A stretch of 64,000 bases of DNA, from positions 1 to 64,000 of the forward strand of contig SVPN01000005.1 in the NCBI GenBank assembly GCA_015065805.1. Reading direction: 5' to 3'. The translations under genes and the position numbers were made by a program. Numbering within the stretch: the stretch's first letter is position 1; every line of letters begins with the position of its first letter. Of the stretch, positions 3,320 through 42,451 are shown in pieces. This DNA is from Oscillospiraceae bacterium (lineage in GTDB: Bacteria > Bacillota > Clostridia > Oscillospirales > Acutalibacteraceae). A model generated the notes under the pieces. It was given only the letters and a program-made list of their open reading frames with translations. It was not told where the DNA came from and made no database searches.

Positions 3320-5983
3320 ATGTTTATGATCTGGCACCACGAAATGCCCGAAAACATCGCGAAAGAATTACAAACCAATATAGAAACCGGCTTATCGGAA
3401 GATGAGGCCGTATACAGACTTGCCGAGTTCGGCGAAAACCGCTATCACGAAAAGCACACAACCTCCGTGTGGAAGGAGTTTCTTAAGCAATACCGTTCAT
3501 TGCCGTCTACATTGATCACCATTGCGGCTGTGTTTTGGTTTTGCTTCAATATTATCCTTTTGTATCTCGGTCAGCCCGCTTCGTTGATCGAACCTATCGT
3601 ATTGCTATTTATGCCGCTGATTGCACATCTGATCTATGCTGTCTGGCAAAAATATGCCACAGCAAAGCTTCACAACATTACCAATACGCAGACAACCACC
3701 GTCAATGTGATCCGTGGCGGTGAAACGGTCAATGTCAGTGCTGCAGATATCGTGCGCGGTGACATCCTTCTTTTAGAAGCCGGAATGATCATCCCTGCCG
3801 ACTGCCGTTTGATCGAGACCGACGATTTATTTTTGGATGAATACATCATTACCGGCGAAGATACCGATGTTGCCAAACACGCCGATGTGACTCTTGACGG
3901 CATTGCGCCGATTTCCGAACGCGTCAATATGATTTATGCGGGATGCGGTGTCAGCCGCGGCAGCGGTAAGGCCCTTGTCGTTTCGACAGCGCAAAGCACG
4001 GAATTTGCACTGATGCTCAACGACCCGAACAATCAGGCTTCTCCTCTTCCCGGTCTGAGCAAGGATCTTGCCACTCTCGAGCGGTTGATCACCTTACCCG
4101 TCCTGGTTTTATCGTTGATCCTCTGTGTTATTGCTGTTATAACCAATCTCTCGAATCTTCAGTCCGTTCTGACGGTAGTACCTTCTGTACTGACGGTTAT
4201 GGCCGTTTGCATCCCTACGGGGTTCACAGTTGCCGCTGTTGTTGCAATGACGATGGGTATGCAACACGTTGTTACCCACACTGCCGATGTCCGCGAGCTT
4301 TCGGTTATGGATACGCTGTCGCGTGTGACCGTTATCTGCGCGGACAAGACGGGCACACTGACCGCCGATATCAAAAAGCCTATCAGCGTCTACACCGGCA
4401 ACGACATCGAAGAGCTGACAAGAATGCCCGGTGAGCGTACACAGGCGTTGATCCGTATGGCAACACTTTGTACCGCCAACGACACCCAGACAACCGGGAT
4501 TGATAATCATCTCTTGCAAAACCCGACCGAGTCCGCCATTATTGAATATGCCCGCGATATCGGTATTGAACGCCGTCTGCTGATGGAAGAAAACCCTCGT
4601 CTTGCCGAGCTTCCTTTTGATGCATCCAGACGGTGTATGTCGGTCGTTCATCTCGTGGACGGCAAGCGTTTGATGGTCACAATGGGTGCACCCGAAAAAG
4701 TGCTCTCGCTTTGCACTTACGGTCCTGTACAAAACGCCGAAGAGGTTTGTCAGCAGCTCGGTGAGCGTTCTCTTCGCGTATTGGCGATTGCATACAAGAT
4801 GGTGGATGAGCTTACGGCATCCGAGTTGGATCCTTCACTTGAAAGCGATATGTATTTTGCGGGTCTGATCGGTCTTGCCGATCAGCCGCGTGTGGAATCC
4901 ATTCAATCCATCCGCGAATGCGCTCAAAGCGGCATTATCACCGTTATGATAACCGGTGATAACGAATCAACCGCTTACGCTGTCGGACTTCAGCTTGGTA
5001 TTCTGGAATCCGAAGATCAGGTTCTCACGGGTGAAGAGCTTCGAAAGATGGACAAGGCGGAGCTGGATGCTTCGGTCGGTCTTTACCGCGTATTCGCGCG
5101 AATCCTTCCCGAAGAAAAAGAGCGCATCATCAAGGCGTGGCAGGCACGCGGTGCTGTTGTGGCATCCACAGGCAACTGCCTTGAGGATGTTCCCGCATTG
5201 CAAAGCGCCGACATCGGCTGTGCAACAGGTGCCGCTGACTGCGATATGACCCGCAACGAATCCGATCTCACCTTGTATGATAACAGCTTTGCAACGCTTG
5301 TAGATGCCATCAAACACGCACGCGGTATTTATGCCAATATCAGCAAGGTAATTCAATATGTGTTGTCCTGCTCGCTCACGGTTATGCTTGCCACGCTTTT
5401 GGCGTTGCTGTTCTCGCCCGGCGATTTTGTCCTTTCGCCTCTTTCCACCGTTTTTTATATGATCATCGGTGTGCTTTGCTCTCTGGCGATTTCTTACGAA
5501 TCCGGCGACCGTCATTCACTGAATCAGAAGCCTCGTCGAGGTCTGGCAAGACTTGTCCCGGCATCCGCGTGGATCTCAACGCTGTGGCAGGGCATTTTGA
5601 CCGGTATTCTTGCCTTTATTGCCTTTTATGCAGGACAAGCGGGTACGTCGGCAGAAGGAAATGATCTTTCTGTCGGTATGACAACTGCCTTCATTATGTT
5701 GATCCTGTCAAGATTGTGGATGGTACTGGCATCGCATCGCCACGATCCCGATCGACCGAAAATTGCCAACCGTGTGATGCCGATCGTCCTGCTCGTATGT
5801 ATTGCACTTTCGGCAATCCTTTTGTATGTACCGATCGTTCGTGAGCTCTTTGGCCTGACCGTTGTCAGCTCCTCCAACTGGGTACTTGCTCTGATCCTGT
5901 CGGCAATCACGCCGATTGCCGTTATCGTGGTTCGTTTTATTTCTATAATTATTTCAACCGTAAAATCAAACGAAGCCGCTTAA
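3320..5983 (+). CDS. divergent P2-like P-type ATPase with degenerate ion-binding and hinge motifs
   Basis: CADKTGTLT phosphorylation site, ITGE, MITGDN, N-terminal cation-ATPase domain; PEGL replaced by PTGF and TGDGVND replaced by TGNCLED. Confidence 0.85.
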   Translation: MFMIWHHEMPENIAKELQTNIETGLSEDEAVYRLAEFGENRYHEKHTTSVWKEFLKQYRSLPSTLITIAAVFWFCFNIILLYLGQPASLIEPIVLLFMPLIAHLIYAVWQKYATAKLHNITNTQTTTVNVIRGGETVNVSAADIVRGDILLLEAGMIIPADCRLIETDDLFLDEYIITGEDTDVAKHADVTLDGIAPISERVNMIYAGCGVSRGSGKALVVSTAQSTEFALMLNDPNNQASPLPGLSKDLATLERLITLPVLVLSLILCVIAVITNLSNLQSVLTVVPSVLTVMAVCIPTGFTVAAVVAMTMGMQHVVTHTADVRELSVMDTLSRVTVICADKTGTLTADIKKPISVYTGNDIEELTRMPGERTQALIRMATLCTANDTQTTGIDNHLLQNPTESAIIEYARDIGIERRLLMEENPRLAELPFDASRRCMSVVHLVDGKRLMVTMGAPEKVLSLCTYGPVQNAEEVCQQLGERSLRVLAIAYKMVDELTASELDPSLESDMYFAGLIGLADQPRVESIQSIRECAQSGIITVMITGDNESTAYAVGLQLGILESEDQVLTGEELRKMDKAELDASVGLYRVFARILPEEKERIIKAWQARGAVVASTGNCLEDVPALQSADIGCATGAADCDMTRNESDLTLYDNSFATLVDAIKHARGIYANISKVIQYVLSCSLTVMLATLLALLFSPGDFVLSPLSTVFYMIIGVLCSLAISYESGDRHSLNQKPRRGLARLVPASAWISTLWQGILTGILAFIAFYAGQAGTSAEGNDLSVGMTTAFIMLILSRLWMVLASHRHDPDRPKIANRVMPIVLLVCIALSAILLYVPIVRELFGLTVVSSSNWVLALILSAITPIAVIVVRFISIIISTVKSNEAA

Positions 5984-5990
5984 CTTTCCC

Positions 5991-6025
5991 GTCAACAGCT
6001 CTGCATTTTAAGCAGAGCTGTTGAC
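5991..6025. repeat. 14-bp perfect inverted repeat (hairpin)
   Basis: GTCAACAGCTCTGC-ATTTTAA-GCAGAGCTGTTGAC; no U-tract follows. Confidence 0.85.
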
Positions 6026-6047
6026 ATATGACGGAGGTGTTTCAATC

Positions 6048-7574
6048 GTGTTTGCTCGCACAAACAGTATGGGGTTGTTTGGCGTCAACGGCTTTCGTGT
6101 AACCGTGGAAGCGGATCTTTCGGGAGGACTTCCCGGGTTTGATGTGGTCGGTTTACCGGGTTCGGCGGTACGCGAATCACGTGATCGCGTCAGAGCCGCG
6201 CTGAAAAACTGCGGATTTGATTATCCTGTCAGCCGTATCACCATCAATCTTGCACCCGCAGATATCCGCAAAGAAGGCTCTGTATACGATTTACCGTTGC
6301 TGATCGCGATTCTTCAGGCGACCTCGCAGATCTCTTTTCCTCTGGATGATGCCGCCTTTATCGGTGAGCTATCCTTAACGGGAGAGCTGCGCCCCATCCG
6401 CGGTGTTTTACCGATGGTGATTGCCGCAAGGGACAGCGGTCTAAAGCGCGTATTTCTCCCGAAGGATAATGCCGCCGAAGGCGCCGTCGTTGACGGGATC
6501 GATGTTTATCCGATTGAAAGTGTGCCGGCATTAACAGCGCATCTGAGCGGCGCATTCCCGATCGCACCCGCCACCTATACGCCTCCTCCCGCCACAGAGG
6601 ACCGTCGTCAACCGGATTTTGCAGAGGTTATGGGACAACAAGCGGCAAGACGTGCTATGGAGGTTGCCGCCGCAGGAGATCACAATCTTTTGCTCATCGG
6701 ACCTCCGGGCTCGGGAAAAAGTATGCTTGCCAAACGCTTACCCTCTATTCTGCCGGATATGACCGCCGAGGAAGCATTAGAAGCAACCAAGATCCACTCC
6801 ATCGCAGGAACTCTCAGTGGCGGCGTCGGTCTGTTAAAGGACCGTCCCTTCCGCGCACCGCATCACAACATCTCCACAGCCGGTCTCACGGGCGGCGGCA
6901 CCGTTCCTCATCCCGGTGAGGTATCGCTTGCTCATCACGGTGTGCTGTTTTTGGACGAGCTTCCTGAGTTTTCACGAACAGCGATGGAAAGTCTTCGCCA
7001 ACCGCTTGAAGATGAAGTTGTCACGATCTCCCGTGTGCAGGCATCTCTCACTTACCCCTGCTCCTTTATGCTTGTCGCGGCGATGAATCCGTGTCCGTGC
7101 GGCTTTTTCGGGCATCCGACAAAGCCGTGCACCTGTTCTCCGAAAGCCGCTTCAAGCTATCTTTCCCGCATTTCGGGTCCTTTACTTGACCGCATCGATA
7201 TTCATATCGAAGTCCCGCCTGTGGATTTTGATAAGCTTAACGCCGCCGAAAAAGCAGAAAGCTCTGCCGAGATCCGTGCACGCGTCAACAAAGCCCGTGC
7301 GATTCAGCAAAAGCGTTTTGCAGGCACCGATATTATCAGCAACGCTCACATTCCTGCAGGTATGCTCAAAGAGTACTGTGTATTGAGTGACGGTGCCTCC
7401 GCTATGTTAAAAATCGCCTTTGATAAAATGGGCTTATCAGCGAGAGCCTACGACCGTCTTTTAAAACTGGCCCGCACCATCGCCGATCTGGACGAAAGCG
7501 ATATTATCGACAGAAAGCACATCGGCGAAGCATTGCAGTATCGCAGTCTCGACCGCAAATATTGGGAACGATAA
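6048..7574 (+). CDS. comM: YifB/ComM family Mg-chelatase-like AAA ATPase
   Basis: GLPGSAVRESRDRVRAALKNCGFDYP, GPPGSGKSMLAKRLPSILP, AMNPCPCGFFG; GTG start at 6048 preceded by GGAGG. Confidence 0.92.
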   Translation: MFARTNSMGLFGVNGFRVTVEADLSGGLPGFDVVGLPGSAVRESRDRVRAALKNCGFDYPVSRITINLAPADIRKEGSVYDLPLLIAILQATSQISFPLDDAAFIGELSLTGELRPIRGVLPMVIAARDSGLKRVFLPKDNAAEGAVVDGIDVYPIESVPALTAHLSGAFPIAPATYTPPPATEDRRQPDFAEVMGQQAARRAMEVAAAGDHNLLLIGPPGSGKSMLAKRLPSILPDMTAEEALEATKIHSIAGTLSGGVGLLKDRPFRAPHHNISTAGLTGGGTVPHPGEVSLAHHGVLFLDELPEFSRTAMESLRQPLEDEVVTISRVQASLTYPCSFMLVAAMNPCPCGFFGHPTKPCTCSPKAASSYLSRISGPLLDRIDIHIEVPPVDFDKLNAAEKAESSAEIRARVNKARAIQQKRFAGTDIISNAHIPAGMLKEYCVLSDGASAMLKIAFDKMGLSARAYDRLLKLARTIADLDESDIIDRKHIGEALQYRSLDRKYWER

Positions 7575-9881: not shown

Positions 9882-10583
9882 TTATGCAAGAAGCATTGAT
9901 AAAAGTTCGTCATACGAACGTACCGTGTACAACGGTGCGATGTCTGACGGCGGTTCACCGCCGTTCGGAGCAAACCAACACGTATCGATGCCCGACAGCA
10001 AACCACCGCGTATATCCGATGTCAGAGAGTCTCCGATAATCAGCAATTCACTCTTATCAGGATGCCCCAGTGCGGCAAGCACCGCATCAAAAAACGCAAC
10101 AGAAGGCTTATCGGCACCGATTTCCTGCGAAATGAACACACCGTTTATATACGGTAATAAGCCGCTGTCTGCAAGTCGGGTGTGTTGCACACTCGCTGTA
10201 CCGTTGGTGATGATACAAATACGATAATGCTCAGACAAGGCTTTTACAAGCCCGACCGCTCCATCCAGAACAAACCCTCTCGTGCCGAGGGTTTGCATAT
10301 ATTGCTCGTTAAAGGAAGCGGCGTCGATGTGCGATGCACCGATTGCCTCAAACAGCTCTTCAAAGCGCTGAACCTTTAATCGGCTGCGGACGATCTCTCC
10401 TCTTTCCAGCTGTTGCCACAGAAGACGGTTGATCTCGTGATAGGTGTGCTGAATCTCAGGTGTCATAGTAATGCCGTGCTTTTCCATCGTATCCGACAAC
10501 GCAAAGCCTTCCGAACGACAGAAATCAAGCAACGTTTCGTCGGCATCCATCAGCAATGTGGTATAACGCATACGGCACCTCAC
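9882..10583 (-). CDS. YjjG-family noncanonical pyrimidine nucleotidase (HAD)
   Basis: [39 protein letters not shown]. Confidence 0.88.
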
Positions 10584-13500
10584 ATTTCAAAGAACGATAT
10601 CTGACTGGACTGCGGAAGATCACCGATCGCACCGAGCTCCCGAAGCGATTCCACGATGGCCTTGGAAATACCCGTACGCTCCTGCAATTCATCAACAGAG
10701 AAATACGGCTCACCCTCTCGCCCGCTCATCAGTCCCTCCGCTGCGGCACCGCCCAGACCGTTGATCGAGCTGAACGGCAACCGAAGTGCACCGTCTTCAA
10801 GCAAATACTTGCGCGAGTGGGATTTGTACAGATCAACCGGCAGGAATTGAATGCCGCGAAGCATTGCCTCGTACACCACGTGCATCATATCGGCAAGCGC
10901 CTGTTCTTTTGCGCTGGCATCACGGCCACGTGAACGGATCTCATCCATTGTATATTTCACCTTTTCGATGCCCGCCTGCACGATTGCCGCATCCATATCT
11001 TCGCCTCGAACGGTAAAATACGCTGCATAATAGGCTTCGGGACGGTGAACCTTATACCATCCGACGCGCAAAGCACCGATGCAATATGCCGCCGCGTGCG
11101 CCTTGGGGAACATATACTTGATCTTCATACACGAATCGATATACCACTGTTCCACACCGCAGGACTTCATCGCTTCAAAATGCTCCTCGGTCAAAAGCTT
11201 TGTAGCATTACCCTTACGCACGATCTCCATGATCTTAAACGCCATTTTCGGTTCCAGTCCCTTTTGCATCAGGTACACCATAATATTATCACGGGTACCG
11301 ATCACTTCGGAAATGGTGCAGGTGCCGTTTTTGATCAGCTCCTGCGCATTGCCGAGCCACACATCCGTGCCGTGGGAAAGTCCCGAAATCTGCAGAAGAT
11401 CCGCAAAGTTTTTCGGCTTGGATTCCACAAGCATCTGGCGGACAAACGGTGTACCCATTTCGGGAAGCGTGAGCGTTCCCGTGTTACAGCCGAGCTGTTC
11501 CTCAGTCAACCCAAGCGGTTCGGGTGAGGTGAACAAACGATACACATCCGGATCGGACATCGTGACATCCATCACGGGAATGCCGCTGAATTCCTCCAGA
11601 TATTTATATGTTGTCGGAATAACATGACCGAGATTATCCAGTTTCAGGATCGTATCGTGAATAGAATGGAAATCGAAGTGAGTGGTGATCACTTCGGAAT
11701 TGGGGTCGTCGGCAGGATGCTGTACAGGTGTGAAATCCTCGGCTTCGTAGTCATTGGGAACAACGACCATACCGCCGGGATGCTGACCCGTCGTGCGTTT
11801 GACGCCGGTGCATCCGAGTGCCAGACGCGTGCGTTCGGCGTTGCTGAACACCAGACCGCGTTCTTCCTCATACTTTTTCACATAGCCAAACGCGGTCTTG
11901 TCCGCCACGGTGGAGATCGTTCCTGCTTTAAACACGTGATTGGGCGGGAACAACGTTTCCGTGTAACGGTGCGCACGGGTCTGATATTCATCGGCAAAGT
12001 TCAGATCAATATCAGGTGCTTTATCACCGTCAAAGCCAAGGAAGGTCTCAAACGGGATCTCGTGTCCGTCACGGTCAAGCGGTGCACCGCACTGCGGACA
12101 GATCTTTTCAGGCAGATCAAAGCCCGAACCGACTTCACCTTTCGTGAAAAACTCCGAGTATTTGCATTGCTTACAAACATAGTGCGGTGCAAGCGGATTT
12201 ACCTCGGAAATGCCCGACATATGAGCAACAAAGGATGATCCGACCGATCCGCGAGAGCCGACAAGATAGCCGTTTTCGTTGGAATTTTGCACGAGTTTTT
12301 GCGCGATCATATACAAAACCGCAAAACCGTGCTTGACGATCGATGTCAGCTCACGGTCAAGACGGGCACGCACGATTTCGGGAAGCGGATCACCGTATTT
12401 TGCCTTGGCACGGCTCCAGGTGATCTCCTGAAGCTCTTCGTCTGCACCGTCGATACGCGGGGAAAATGTTCCTTCGGGGATCGGACGGATCTTTTCGATC
12501 CGATCCGCAATCAGGTTGGTGTTTTCCACAACAACCTCATAGGCTTTTTCTTTTCCCAGATACGCAAATTCCGCCAACATTTCTTCGGTGTTACGGAAGT
12601 ACAGGGGGGGTTGCTGGTCGGCATCGGGATAACCTTGTACGCCTTGCAGGATCCGACGGAACTCTTCATCCTCGGGATCCATAAAATGCACATCGCAGGT
12701 AGCACACACGGGAATATTCAGCTTATCACCGAGTCGGACGATTGTACGGTTGAAATCCTTGAGCTGTTCTTCGTCGCGCGCCGTACCTTTGCGCACCATA
12801 AACGCATTGTTTCCGAGCGGTTGAATTTCGAGAAAATCGTAAAACCGCAATATCGCAAAGTTCTCCCCAACCGCGACCGTCCACAACCGCTTCAAACAGT
12901 TCACCCTGTTCACAAGCAGAGCCAATGATCAGTCCCTCGCGGTGTTCCATCAGCTTTGAACGTGTGATACGGGGACGCTTGAAGTAATTCTTAAGATGTG
13001 ACCAGGAAATGAGTTTATACAAATTTTTAAGACCTGTCAGATTTTGCGCAAGAATGATCAGATGGTAAGGCTTGACACCCTTCATATCACCGCCTTTAAG
13101 TCCGGTGTTGATCCCATCCACCGTTTCAACTCCGCGCTGTTCCTTCATATCCGTAATGAGCTTGAGATAGATCTGCGCCAGAACGCGTGCGTCATCGCAC
13201 GCGCGATGATGATTGAAGGGCGGCAGTTGCAACGCCTTGGCAACCGTATCCAGCTTATGGTTTTTCAGATTGGGATACAAGGCTCTGGCAATCGGTACCG
13301 TATCGATCGATGTGAACGGATACGGCATATCACAACGCTCGGCCGACTTTTTGACAAATCCCGTATCAAACGGTGCGTTGTGGGCAATGATCACCTTGCA
13401 ATCGCCGCAAAACTCATAGAACAAGCGAAGTGCCTCGTCTTCCCTCGGGGCATCCTTGACCATATCGTTTGTGATACCGGTAAGCTCCGTGATTTTTTCC

Positions 13501-14960
13501 GAAATGGGCATTTCGGGATTGACAAAGGTATTGAATTCCTCCACCACTGCCCCGTCTCTGACGCGCACGGCTCCGATTTCGGTGATGCGATCATTTTGCT
13601 GGGAAAGGCCGGTGGTTTCCAGATCAAATACGATGCATTCGTCCGTAAGCGCACAGGTTGCATCTCCTGTCACGACGGGGATCATATCGTTGATATAATA
13701 CGCTTCCACGCCGTAAAGGACCTTGATCTCCTTACCGCCCTTGGCAAGCTTCGCCGCAGTATTCATCGCATCAGGGAATGCCTGCACAACACCGTGGTCC
13801 GTGATGGCTACAGCGGGATGTCCCCAATCGGCCGCACGGGTCACAAGATCACTTGCTTCCGAAACGGCATCCATCGAGGACATTTTGGTATGCATATGAA
13901 GCTCAACGCGCTTTTTCGGGGCATTATCGGGCTTCTGATATTTTGCAACGAGTGCCATCGATTTAATACGAAGAACGTTACATTTGGCATATTCGTTATA
14001 ATCGTAACTGCCTTGTGCCAGAACACAAACACCGTTTTTCACCGATGCAAGTGCTTCTAACTTTTGCTTGTCACGCTTTTTATCCAGCCACATATTCACC
14101 GTCAGAGAACCCGTGCGATCGGATAAATGGAATTCATACAGAACACGCGTGCCGTCACGGCTTTCGCGGTGCTCTTTTTCCATTCCGAACACTTCACCCC
14201 AGACGGTCACAAAGCTGCCGTCCGGCTCAACCGTGCGGATCGGTACGGGCATTTCACGGATATCTTTTCCCCAGATAGTTTGCGCGGTTTCCAAATAAAT
14301 CGGTAATCCGCTTGTGGGCGGGCGATTGAAATCCACGCCCGCCGTTCGCGGTTTAGCGGGAGCGGGTGCGCCGTCGGATTTCACAGCAGCCGCGGCGGCT
14401 GCAGCCGCCGTTGCCGCCGCTTCCTGCGCACGTTGTTGCTCCTCTTCCATTGCCTGCTGCATCAATCGCTGATACTGTTCATCATTGGTATCAACGGTCT
14501 CATCTCCCTGAAACTCCACCGTCACGCGCACGCCGAACAGATCCCTGATGAGCGTTTCCAACTCCGTATCCATCTGCGTGCTTCTCAGAAGACCGGCACC
14601 GCCGTGTGCCAGTTTGACATACACACGATCCCCGACAATGCTGTAAACCGCATCGTTAAAACTACCGTTTACCTGCATATGACGGCGACGCAAAAGAGGA
14701 ATAATCGTCGCAAACGCCTGCTCATTAAGTGCTTCGGCGGGAAAACAAAGCTCCGCACGCACTTTTGCAGAAAGCAAACGGTTCAGACAATCCTCCGCGC
14801 GTTCAATATCCTCATAAGCAGGAACCGTGCGCACACGCAGCTTCAGCTCCAACGTACGCGTCGATTCTTCCAATGTCATATGTAAAACCGCGGCATCGTA
14901 AAACACCGACGGAACAGAATCCATAGAAATCCGGGATTCAAATAATTCACGAAACGTCAT
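10580..14960 (-). pseudogene. polC: PolC-type DNA polymerase III alpha subunit, frameshifted into two ORFs (12726..14960 and 10580..12925)
   Basis: OB/PHP, exonuclease (VFDLETTGLSQQNDRITEIGA) and polymerase regions are all present but continue in another frame near 12838-12860. Confidence 0.9.
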
Positions 14961-21506: not shown

Positions 21507-21762
21507 GGTATAACGCGTTGACGAAGGAAGTAAGCGGTTACAAACATACCCCTCCAGAGACGGTTGCCCTGGCTGAAAGCAACCGGCGGTATCCGACCGG
21601 CTGAAGTTCCCTTCCGAGCGGCAATGCTGAACCGTTTATTGCAGTAGGCGTTGACGGCAGACCCCGTTACCGGTCGCAAGAGTGTTTGCTTTTGGCAAAA
21701 ATCAGGGTGGTACCGCGGAGAATTCACAATCTTCGTCCCTATTTCGGGACGAAGATTTTTTG
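21507..21762 (+). promoter_or_regulatory. T-box riboswitch (Phe specifier) ahead of pheST
   Basis: T-box AGGGTGGTACCGCG at 21704-21717, TGAAG-TTC specifier at 21607-21609, terminator AATCTTCGTCCC/GGGACGAAGATTTTTT at about 21729-21762. Confidence 0.93.
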
Positions 21763-39009: not shown

Positions 39010-42000
39010 TTACACATTCTCGTTGGCAAAGAACTCTTCGAGCTGTGTACGATCAAGACTCTTGCTTTGAGCCAAAAGATCGGTCAGATGCTCAAGAGCC
39101 GTGCGGTGAGAGACGATCATCTCTCTGGTACGGTCATATTGCTTCTGCATCAGTTCCTCTGCTTCCGAAGCCTTCCAGCGGGTAAACAGATGCTCACCCA
39201 TCGCAAAATCCTCTAAAGCGGCACGGATAATATAACGCGCTTTGGCAATATCTGAGCTGGCACCCGTATTGATTCCTGCCGATTCGCCGTAAACCTCGAT
39301 CTCAGCAATGCGTCCCGCAAGACAACGGCAAACGATATTCATCAGCTCATCAAAGGTTTGCGTGCCGCGCTCTTTCTCCGTTGCGCTTTCCATAAAACCG
39401 CCGAAATCGCCGCGGGATACGATCGTCAGGAATGACGGTGTTGTGCCGCACAAGCGGCAAACAAGCGCGTGACCCGCTTCGTGACACGCCGTCTGACGAA
39501 CGTGCGCAGGATCCATCTTTTTGATCTCGCCGTAACGGAATTCATCCACCGATTCCATATAATTGGTCTGATTCGGTTCGGCACCGCCGAGTGAGCGAGC
39601 ATACTGCGCGTTCATCATCTCAAGATCGGCATTGCTCATACCGCCCGTACGGACTGCCATATTGCGCACGATCTTTTCGTGGTTTTCGCCGAAATGGATC
39701 CCGTGCTTTTTCAAGCTGAGAAGAAGCAGTTCATAGCGGTCATCGGTATCGGGCAAGGATACATACAGCTTGCGATCAAAGCGACGCACAAATGCCGCAT
39801 CAAGCACGCGAGGGCCGTCGCCCGCCAGCTCATAGTTGGTCGCCGCGAGGATAAACACAGGTCGCTTCGGATCGGAAACAAAGCCGTCCATTTCCGCAAG
39901 GAACGTTGTCAACGCATCCTCGTTATGTGTCGATCCGATCGAACCCGTGCGGGTTCTGGCAATGGCATCCACCTCATCAATGAAGATGATGGACGGTGCA
40001 TAACGACGCGCCTTACGGAACAGCTCGCGGATATTGCGCTCGGTTTCGCCGACAAGCGATCCGAAGAACGATGTCGCCGACACCGGGAAGAACGTTGCCT
40101 CACACTCATTTGCCATCGCCTTTGCCAGCAAGGTTTTACCCGTACCGGGAGGTCCGTAAAGAAGCACGCCCTTGGGCATTGTTTTCCCCTTTGCCGCCAT
40201 TTCACGGGGGTTGTTCAGCATAGCCGCAAACTCGCGAAGTGTCTCTTTGGCGGTCTTGCAACCGATCACATCGTCGAATCCGAGGTCGTTGTTTTGTCCC
40301 TTCTTGGCAATCAGACCTCTGTCCTCCGCGCGGGTCGCCTTCTTCACCTGCAAGCGTTCAAACGATATCGTAACATTGGCAGGATCTTCAATATACTGCG
40401 CACAGTTGAAATACAAAAACTTGCCCGCGCGACCGAACCACAGCGTTTTATTGTTGATCAGTGCGCCAAAGGTCAGTTCTTTTAACGATGTTTCAAATTC
40501 CGCCCCCTGATCGTCGATCTTCAACACACCGCGGGCACCGCGCGCCATCAGCGTGTCAAACGAACGGATCGCTCCACCCGAGGAATCCAGAATATACACC
40601 GGCGTTTCGGGAGAAAACTCGCGGATATAATCAAACATCTGCATACCGACCGAATCAAAATCCTCAACATCGTTGGGGATCACAGCCTGATCCTCACGAC
40701 CGCAAAGCGGATCGATCAGCACATAGTCGGTCACCGAATAGGCGCGACGCTTGAACTGCTCTCCGTCGGTAAACAGATCAAACACGGTGTTCTGAGCCGC
40801 TCCCACACGTTCAAAGACCTGCGCAAACCGATCGCTCAGCACCGCAACACGCATTTGCTCACGGTTGACAAACAGCGTTTGGATCTCATCACCCTTGACC
40901 TCGATGCGAATCGTCACGTTCTTCATCTGCTCGACCTTTGAGGAGTCCTTGTGATACAGCTGCATCACGACCTCCTGAAGCTCGCGCACCAGAATATTTC
41001 TTGCCAATCCGCGAAGTGAACGCGCATCCGCTGTTCCGCCGCCGTTGTACAGCACAAGTGCCGCAAGCATATCGGAATCGCATTCCACCTTGAGTCCCGA
41101 CGAGGATTCAAAGAAAGAGATTTGCTTTTCGATTTCGTTTTTGATGATCTCCATCAATGCAAACGGCTCTAAGTGATTGAAAAGGAGAATATGTCCGTTT
41201 GCCATACGCGTGGTGATGCATTCGGGGAAATACGGCTCGCGCGTCTGCGGATTGATATCCTTGCGAAGAGCATCCAGAATCACACTGCGCGAAACCCCCG
41301 ACAGGTCATATACATTGGGATCGTCGTACAGCTCTTTACCGGCATTGGTCGTCATAATGATGATCGTATCACGGAAGGAGACATCCGTATTGGACTTCAT
41401 ATCCTTCAAAGTGCCCGCATCCAGAATCTGCAAGAACAGATGAATCGTGTTCAGGTGGGCTTTTTCAATCTCATCAAAAATGAGAATGCCGTTGGGATGC
41501 TGACGGACAAACCCGGTCACCACGTTGGGCTGACCGTGTTCACCGTTAAATTTCATATTGGCAAGATTATCGGAATATTCACTCATATCCACAACCTTTG
41601 CCTTACGACCGAGATACTGCTCGCATTGCTTGGCAAGGAAGGTTTTACCGACACCCGAAGGGCCCGTGAACAGGAACGTAGCAAGAGGTGTTACGCGCTT
41701 CGGATCCTGAGAGGCGAACATATCACACTCAAAGATCGTCTGCACCACCTCATCCACTGCGTGACGCTGACCCTTAACGCTTTTGAGAAGCCCTTCTTTC
41801 ATTGCCTTGAGCTTAGCCGCTTTATCGGTAAGAGACTCCGCTTCTTTATCGGTTTTTGCTTTTACGGTCGGGGCGGCAGGCGCTTCGGGCGCTTCGGGGT
41901 CTGAAGGTTCACTTTTACCCAGAAGAGCCGCCAGCGCCGCGGCAGTAGCGGCGGAAGCACTCTGCTGTTCAGGAGTCTGAGCAGTGCCGGCACTATCCGT

Positions 42001-42378
42001 GATCGGAGCATCCCCTTGCTTGATCTGCGGGGGTTGCTGATCCTTTCCTTTGCTTAACAGCGACGCAAGGCTGTCTTCGAGATCCTGCGATTTCTTCTCC
42101 TGCACACTGATCTGAACGGTGTTGCGCGCATCCTCTTCGGGAAGAATACCCGCGATCAGCTCATTGACCGCTTTGGTGCATTCCTCAGGCGATACATCCG
42201 CGGAGAGCTCAAACGTGTGAATATGTATCCCGTCAGAGCTGTGACGGATGTCTTTTGCCCCCATCTTTTCTGACAAAGACTGGAAGAACACCTCCCATAT
42301 TTCGCGATCATTTTTGATTTTGTACTTTGTGGTGACGTCCGACGAACGGAACGTAACAGAAATCGTATATTTTTTCAT
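39010..42378 (-). CDS. dual AAA+ (ClpB-D2-like, then AAA/M41) zinc metalloprotease with intervening receiver-like segment
   Basis: Walker A GPSGVGKT and FDEIEKAH; second GPPGTGKTLLAKA, IIFIDEVDAIA; TACHEAGHALVCR (HEXXH) and NTGASSDIAKA; no transmembrane stretch; ATG 42378 after AGGAGG. Confidence 0.9.
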   Translation of the reverse strand: MKKYTISVTFRSSDVTTKYKIKNDREIWEVFFQSLSEKMGAKDIRHSSDGIHIHTFELSADVSPEECTKAVNELIAGILPEEDARNTVQISVQEKKSQDLEDSLASLLSKGKDQQPPQIKQGDAPITDSAGTAQTPEQQSASAATAAALAALLGKSEPSDPEAPEAPAAPTVKAKTDKEAESLTDKAAKLKAMKEGLLKSVKGQRHAVDEVVQTIFECDMFASQDPKRVTPLATFLFTGPSGVGKTFLAKQCEQYLGRKAKVVDMSEYSDNLANMKFNGEHGQPNVVTGFVRQHPNGILIFDEIEKAHLNTIHLFLQILDAGTLKDMKSNTDVSFRDTIIIMTTNAGKELYDDPNVYDLSGVSRSVILDALRKDINPQTREPYFPECITTRMANGHILLFNHLEPFALMEIIKNEIEKQISFFESSSGLKVECDSDMLAALVLYNGGGTADARSLRGLARNILVRELQEVVMQLYHKDSSKVEQMKNVTIRIEVKGDEIQTLFVNREQMRVAVLSDRFAQVFERVGAAQNTVFDLFTDGEQFKRRAYSVTDYVLIDPLCGREDQAVIPNDVEDFDSVGMQMFDYIREFSPETPVYILDSSGGAIRSFDTLMARGARGVLKIDDQGAEFETSLKELTFGALINNKTLWFGRAGKFLYFNCAQYIEDPANVTISFERLQVKKATRAEDRGLIAKKGQNNDLGFDDVIGCKTAKETLREFAAMLNNPREMAAKGKTMPKGVLLYGPPGTGKTLLAKAMANECEATFFPVSATSFFGSLVGETERNIRELFRKARRYAPSIIFIDEVDAIARTRTGSIGSTHNEDALTTFLAEMDGFVSDPKRPVFILAATNYELAGDGPRVLDAAFVRRFDRKLYVSLPDTDDRYELLLLSLKKHGIHFGENHEKIVRNMAVRTGGMSNADLEMMNAQYARSLGGAEPNQTNYMESVDEFRYGEIKKMDPAHVRQTACHEAGHALVCRLCGTTPSFLTIVSRGDFGGFMESATEKERGTQTFDELMNIVCRCLAGRIAEIEVYGESAGINTGASSDIAKARYIIRAALEDFAMGEHLFTRWKASEAEELMQKQYDRTREMIVSHRTALEHLTDLLAQSKSLDRTQLEEFFANENV

Positions 42379-42451
42379 AACAAACCTCCTATTTGAAGTC
42401 TTAATTCCAATTGCACAAACAAGGTCGGAAATCATCGACCGAATATGTATA

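Follow-up and report, generated by a model that had tools for sequence, protein, structure and literature searches.

Can a P-type ATPase that has kept its phosphorylation site but lost the residues expected to bind a cation in the membrane still work as a pump, and if not, what has it become? This question is raised by a gene at positions 3320 to 5983 (+ strand) of the window, by which we mean the whole stretch of 64,000 nucleotides that was analysed (positions 1 to 64,000 of contig SVPN01000005.1 of an Oscillospiraceae bacterium). The M4 glutamate and the GDGxxND hinge count as hallmarks of P2-type pumps, and both are altered here, for which the first-pass annotation offered three readings: a non-cation substrate, a regulatory pseudo-pump or a new subgroup.

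The gene is an intact open reading frame with an ATG start and an AAGGAG-like site directly upstream, encoding a P2A-derived P-type ATPase of 887 amino acids without cation ligands. Five Pfam domains (E1-E2_ATPase, Cation_ATPase_N, Cation_ATPase, Hydrolase and Cation_ATPase_C) all scored above their gathering scores, and an AlphaFold2 model built from 37 locus sequences (mean pLDDT 83.9, pTM 0.73) predicts a complete P2 fold with A, P and N domains and ten membrane helices, for which Foldseek returned LMCA1, SERCA, SPCA and Na,K-ATPase as matches. The protein has the A, P and N domains, M1-M6 core and DKTGT motif of the P-type superfamily, and the general P-type model TIGR01494 was the only NCBIfam P-type model passed (198 bits, cut-off 62). 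The P2 Ca2+ equivalogs IIA2, IIB and IIA1 reached 363, 313 and 294 bits against cut-offs of 798, 507 and 703, the P3A H+-ATPase model TIGR01647, considered because of the PxGL motif, 267 against 615, the P4 flippase model TIGR01652 40 against 431 and the P5 model TIGR01657 163 against 618. A riboswitch search upstream of the ATPase gene found none; elsewhere in the window a T-box leader (21509-21743, + strand) lies immediately 5' of pheS-pheT. The source genome (G000) is a 1.77-Mb draft, 79% complete. On the same contig PolC is split (10580-14960, - strand) into overlapping ORFs in different frames with a break near 12.8 kb, 12726-14960 corresponding to PolC positions 19-677 and 10580-12925 to 683-1444, which reflects either a draft-assembly error or a real frameshift.

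All four species of the genus, which belongs to the gut Clostridia, carry the ATPase gene at this locus (draft genomes), the proteins of the other three being 64, 61 and 54% identical to that of the window. We compared the four with 33 aligned canonical relatives in SERCA numbering, and residues are listed below in the order window genome, G003, G001 and G002; all coding features given are on the + strand unless stated otherwise. In M4, the PEGL motif is replaced by PTGF (residues 299-302, positions 4214-4225), or P[TAS]G[LF] across the four species, so that the Glu309 position reads T/A/T/S where all 33 relatives have Glu. In M5 (YVLSCSLTVM, residues 680-689, 5357-5386), the Asn768 position is S/G/S/A and the Glu771 position V/L/L/L, compared to Asn in 33 of 33 and Glu in 31 of 33 relatives. 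In M6 (YMIIGVLCSLAISYE, residues 713-727, 5456-5500), positions that are Asn796, Thr799 and Asp800 in all 33 relatives are respectively Tyr in all four species, I/I/F/I, and Gly in all four; the assignment of Tyr to Asn796 hinges on the placement of a one-residue gap near M6 (MAFFT versus phmmer), both placements leaving no Asn there and Gly at the Asp800 position. The M4 and M6 ligands expected of a P2A pump (Glu309 and Asn796/Asp800 type) are absent in the four species, and with them all six SERCA-type side-chain ligands of M4-M6. Moreover, the position of SERCA Glu908 in M8 is occupied by Arg798 (5711-5713) in all four, aligned with Arg795 of LMCA1. No acidic residue is shared by the four species in the predicted membrane helices, the nearest ones, E254 and E727, being at the cytosolic ends of such helices, and residues conserved in the membrane part include the invariant H103, T303, C684, Y713, G717 and R798, and Y680. 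Judged from these substitutions, transport of Ca2+ or any other cation by the ATPase has probably ceased.

The cytosolic headpiece shows a mixed picture. The TGE dephosphorylation motif (residues 178-180, 3851-3859), the DKTGT phosphorylation motif (342-346, 4343-4357; DKTG[ST] across the four species) and TGD (545-547, 4952-4960, within MITGDN at 543-548), all reported as intact on first pass, were indeed found, Glu180 and TGD being kept in all four species, as is Lys600 (5117-5119), the equivalent of SERCA Lys684. Invariant in the four are the equivalents of D351, K352, T353, G354, T357, D601, R604, T625, G626, D627, K684, D707 and E183, which include the phosphoryl-transfer residues Asp342, Lys343, Thr344, Lys600, Asp623 and Glu180 of the window protein, and those of the nucleotide-binding residues E442, F487 and R560 (E404, F433 and R486). 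On the other hand, KGAPD/E is replaced by MGAPE (455-459, 4682-4696), the Lys515 position being Met in all four species (MGAP) and Lys in all 33 canonical relatives; Arg stands at the K492 position, and Asp or Glu takes the place of the Ser in TGES. The hinge TGDGVND has become TGNCLED (617-623, 5168-5188) in the window protein, MGNELAD in G003 and G001 and TGNGLSD in G002 (consensus [TM]GN.L.DVPAL), and instead of a GDGxxND hinge with two Mg2+-site aspartates all four species have GN...D. The first of these aspartates, D703, is Asn in all four (Asn619) and Asp in 33 of 33 relatives, the Asn706 position is lost (E/A/A/S), and the D707 equivalent, Asp623, is kept throughout. For P-type ATPases the GDGVND loop has been called indispensable, both to coordinate Mg2+ and to become phosphorylated (PMC13322241). 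Catalytic positions, 16 of which were chosen from established SERCA knowledge, were kept in 13 cases, compared to 101 cases among all 225 canonical-invariant positions (binomial p 0.003), and ion positions in 0 of 7 (Fisher p 0.018), these being rough tests on small hand-picked sets.

The replacements of PEGL, TGDGVND and KGAPE and the lack of Ca2+-coordinating residues in M5 and M6, which had been proposed from the window alone, thus hold for the four species of the genus, and since the same changes are present in all four species they reflect neither chance nor sequencing error; the loss of hinge Asn706 and the Arg at the Glu908 position come in addition to what had been claimed.

In all four species a FAD-dependent oxidoreductase (273-1943, - strand; without NCBIfam hit and named from its sequence) and a BaiN/HI0933-type flavoprotein (TIGR00275; 1865-3112, - strand) lie on one strand, and the ATPase gene and comM/yifB on the other. 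The latter, encoding a Mg chelatase-like AAA ATPase (6021-7574), starts 37 nt downstream of the ATPase gene, with an inverted repeat at about 5995-6024 (CAACAGCTCTGC ... GCAGAGCTGTTG) without a T run between them. Another AAA chain of the window, a 1141-amino acid protein (39010-42435, - strand), combines a Clp-like AAA_2 domain (about 250-372), a FtsH/Cdc48-like AAA domain (757-893) and an M41 peptidase domain (974-1083), an unusual double-AAA protease by domain content. Canonical relatives in other genera are 33-36% identical to the altered ATPase and often occupy the same locus, beside comM and/or baiN: a canonical P2A pump was found in the full arrangement in another genus of the family (G083, L064), with the baiN side only in G229 (L063) and G396 (L059), and with the comM side in G030, G097, G178 and G320. 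The latter six carry PEGL or PEGM, NLVTD, SCNLGE and TGDGVNDAPAL or TGDGINDAPAL, and the G083 copy is among the 33 aligned rows with Asp703 and Glu309. As comM also lies next to a canonical pump in other genera, ComM is unsupported as a functional partner.

In the tree, the four altered proteins are nested among canonical P2A pumps (SH-aLRT 98 and 100), so that by phylogenetic position the protein belongs to P2A, and they group with those six of the seven syntenic canonical pumps that were in the tree, these being their nearest rows (SH-aLRT 98). Their clade has a stem of 3.6 substitutions per site and internal branches of 0.13-0.43, the main tree being a quick search in which so long a stem calls for caution. 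In a nine-genome comparison, the stem took 2.14 of a total of about 5.2 for the ATPase (rest about 3.1) and 0.29 of about 2.3 for ComM (rest about 2.0), a rate pattern that, as read from these sequences, is a burst on the genus stem followed by ordinary rates. Together these data bear out the suggestion of a new subgroup: the four species form a genus-level clade whose stem is very long and which lies within the canonical P2A pumps found at this locus. The first-pass annotation had also held that orthologues with canonical motifs would imply decay or error. Such orthologues do exist, but in other genera, and they show that the altered ATPase is a positional orthologue in a derived state and not one in decay.

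A canonical P2A paralogue is encoded elsewhere in three of the four species (G000 C23, G001 C40 and G003 C73, the match in the last containing one in-frame TAG). None was seen in the 91% complete genome of G002 (L051, contig C44), the species that has diverged furthest within the genus, in which the altered ATPase would be the sole P2A-type gene. The source genome holds a further P-type ATPase, L003 (G000:C8), with PQGL in M4 and the hinge TGDGVNDVLAL, which we take to resemble CtpE-type proteins.

Profile searches at E<=1e-210 of 394 genomes of the order, 391 of the class and 300 of the phylum, samples that overlap, recovered the altered ATPase in its own genome only. As these searches covered samples of the higher ranks that did not include the genus siblings, we describe the altered ATPase beyond the genus as not found rather than absent. 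Among 398 genomes of the family, profile scores fell from 1667 to 682 bits, and the best eight of the lower group were canonical. An exact DNA pattern (MITGD...GN...D[AV]P) matched only the own genome among 394; its control with Asp matched 27 of 40 genomes, so that roughly two thirds of genomes would be caught, and siblings with MMTGD or MTTGD escape the pattern as well. A search of genome contigs gave only two loci, from goat-cecum Clostridia MAGs, matching the siblings.

Selection on the altered protein has been maintained. Within the genus its dN/dS is 0.12-0.24 (Nei-Gojobori; approximate, as dS of 1.35-2.4 is near saturation) and not near 1, the value that had been named on first pass as a refutation, compared to 0.13 for the canonical P2A paralogue of the genus and 0.05-0.12 for ComM. 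At 77 of the 225 canonical-invariant positions the canonical residue is never present in the four species, and many of these 77 are invariant again in their new state, for example W109, M156, D350, K352, K353, M455, N619, T636, D640, C641 and N655. The distribution of constraint over the protein is inverted compared to canonical relatives, the M4-M6 core being relaxed and the A and N domains tightened, so that the region with the strongest conservation in canonical pumps ranks among the weakest in the altered clade: identity within the clade is 0.51 for the core, 0.71 for the A domain and 0.69 for both the N and P domains, with the M6-M7 loop also strongly conserved (0.70), and the difference in identity between core and N domain is -0.18 (bootstrap -0.27 to -0.09), where each of six canonical groups shows +0.26 to +0.39. 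An inversion of this kind would be expected if the site in the membrane had lost its importance and the cytosolic surface had acquired a function.

Weighing these data, we consider it about as probable as not (roughly 0.5) that the protein is a pseudo-pump, a P2A Ca2+-ATPase of which the membrane cation site was lost on the genus stem and the headpiece is still under selection. With marginally less assurance we propose that a Ca2+-pump locus was turned, in one genus, into a membrane-anchored regulator that depends on nucleotide or phosphorylation and moves no ion. In such a protein, the headpiece would most likely still bind nucleotide through F433, E404 and R486, the Lys515 equivalent being lost, and an aspartyl-phosphate at Asp342 might still be reached, slowly and with weak Mg2+ affinity, Asn619 presumably being a weaker Mg2+ ligand. 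Without ligands cation occlusion should fail, so that E1P is probably no longer coupled to transport in the canonical way. The A and N domains, moving in response to nucleotide or phosphate, would then supply the output, read by a putative partner, giving a regulatory or scaffold role via the cytosolic domains. Some observations do not fit this reading well. A pure scaffold would have no need of the P-domain core or of Glu180 in TGE, and their retention suits a cycling ATPase; the conserved polar residues H103, T303, Y680, C684, Y713 and R798 could line a new site, and as G002 shows no canonical P2A, regulation of the paralogue is unlikely as a fixed or general role.

A working pump, with a site rebuilt for an anion, a lipid, an organic cation or a small polar molecule and a full E1-E2 cycle running with Asn in the hinge, is our tentative second choice, at perhaps one chance in three. 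It is favoured by the retention of TGE, DKTG, TGD, Lys600 and Asp623, the invariance of Y713, G717, R798, C684, T303 and H103 and the ten helices of the model; moreover, the acidic M4 ligand of P2 pumps is missing from P-type ATPases for other substrates, such as the P4 flippases. Yet a rebuilt site is difficult to reconcile with former ligand positions that vary between the species (T/A/T/S, S/G/S/A and V/L/L/L) and with a core less conserved (0.51) than the A, N and P domains (0.69-0.71), the reverse of every canonical group, while the change of D703 to Asn hits the very loop described as essential (PMC13322241). It is mainly this shift of constraint from M4-M6 to the A and N domains that makes us prefer the pseudo-pump. 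Of the three initial readings the new subgroup stands, the pseudo-pump is favoured and the non-cation substrate is retained as the main rival.

A cation pump whose ligands have moved elsewhere, for instance one for H+ or a monovalent ion, with Arg798 acting like LMCA1 Arg795 or as a built-in counter-ion, appears improbable. Arg798 aligns with that residue (PMC11977196) and backbone carbonyls near Pro299 remain usable, but no acidic residue of the predicted membrane helices is common to the four species. P3A proton pumps require a single Asp in M6 as proton carrier; M6 of the altered ATPase contains no Asp in any of the four species, Gly standing at that position. More improbable still is an uncoupled, signalling ATPase that is phosphorylated and dephosphorylated on a cytosolic signal with the membrane part as a mere anchor: it draws on the evidence for the pseudo-pump, with emphasis on the TGE and P-domain residues that are kept, but the changes of D703 to Asn and K515 to Met are expected to lower Mg2+ and ATP affinity, and the conserved neighbourhood holds no signalling partner besides comM, itself found beside a canonical pump. 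A gene in relaxed decay towards a pseudogene, or an error of assembly, to which the very long stem and the draft genomes could point, is rejected by intact, syntenic ORFs in four species that share their substitutions at 54-64% identity, by the dN/dS of 0.12-0.24 and by the many re-fixed positions among the 77.

The four species thus form a natural experiment in which the cation site was wholly lost and most of the phosphorylation machinery kept. If the protein is a pseudo-pump, it offers a bacterial example of a pseudoenzyme in a transporter family for which human TMEM94 is the debated case that we encountered; if it still pumps, an Asn suffices in place of the first hinge Asp, and a P2A fold is able to switch to a substrate that requires no acidic ligand. 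Our literature searches found no work on 'pseudo-pump' P-type ATPases or on SERCA D703N, and no described bacterial pseudo-P-type ATPase, TMEM94 being the only near parallel.

Among known systems, the canonical pumps at the comM/baiN locus (G030, G097, G178, G320, G229, G396 and G083) are the positional orthologues of the altered ATPase. Its best PDB sequence match (E 8e-106), and also its best match by Foldseek fold E-value, is LMCA1 (lmo0841), the Listeria P2A Ca2+-ATPase (PDB 6zhf, 6zhh, 9euq and 9evc), with which it shares the ten-helix P2 layout, the M8 Arg and the DKTGT, TGE, TGD and Lys684 equivalents. LMCA1, in which Arg795 fills SERCA site I of a single-site pump (PMC11977196), keeps Glu292, Asn716, a second M6 ligand at 720 and TGDGVND, whereas the window protein has no cation ligand and an Asn in the hinge. 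The PMR1/SPCA-type Ca2+/Mn2+ ATPases provide the top NCBIfam model by score (TIGR01522, 363 bits, far below its cut-off of 798) and, with the SPCA1 CaE1 structure, the best TM-score among the matches listed (0.84), but unlike them the window protein lacks the Ca2+/Mn2+ ligands. Closest in kind, likened by motif pattern, is human TMEM94/ERMA, which combines a P-type architecture with an altered catalytic hinge and of which the activity is disputed, no ATPase activity being reported in one study (PMC12134183) and Mg2+ uptake argued in another (PMC13322241). TMEM94 lost TGES and the hinge and has DKQGI and GSSANL, whereas the bacterial protein keeps TGE, DKTG and the Asp707 equivalent, its losses being the cation ligands and one hinge Asp.
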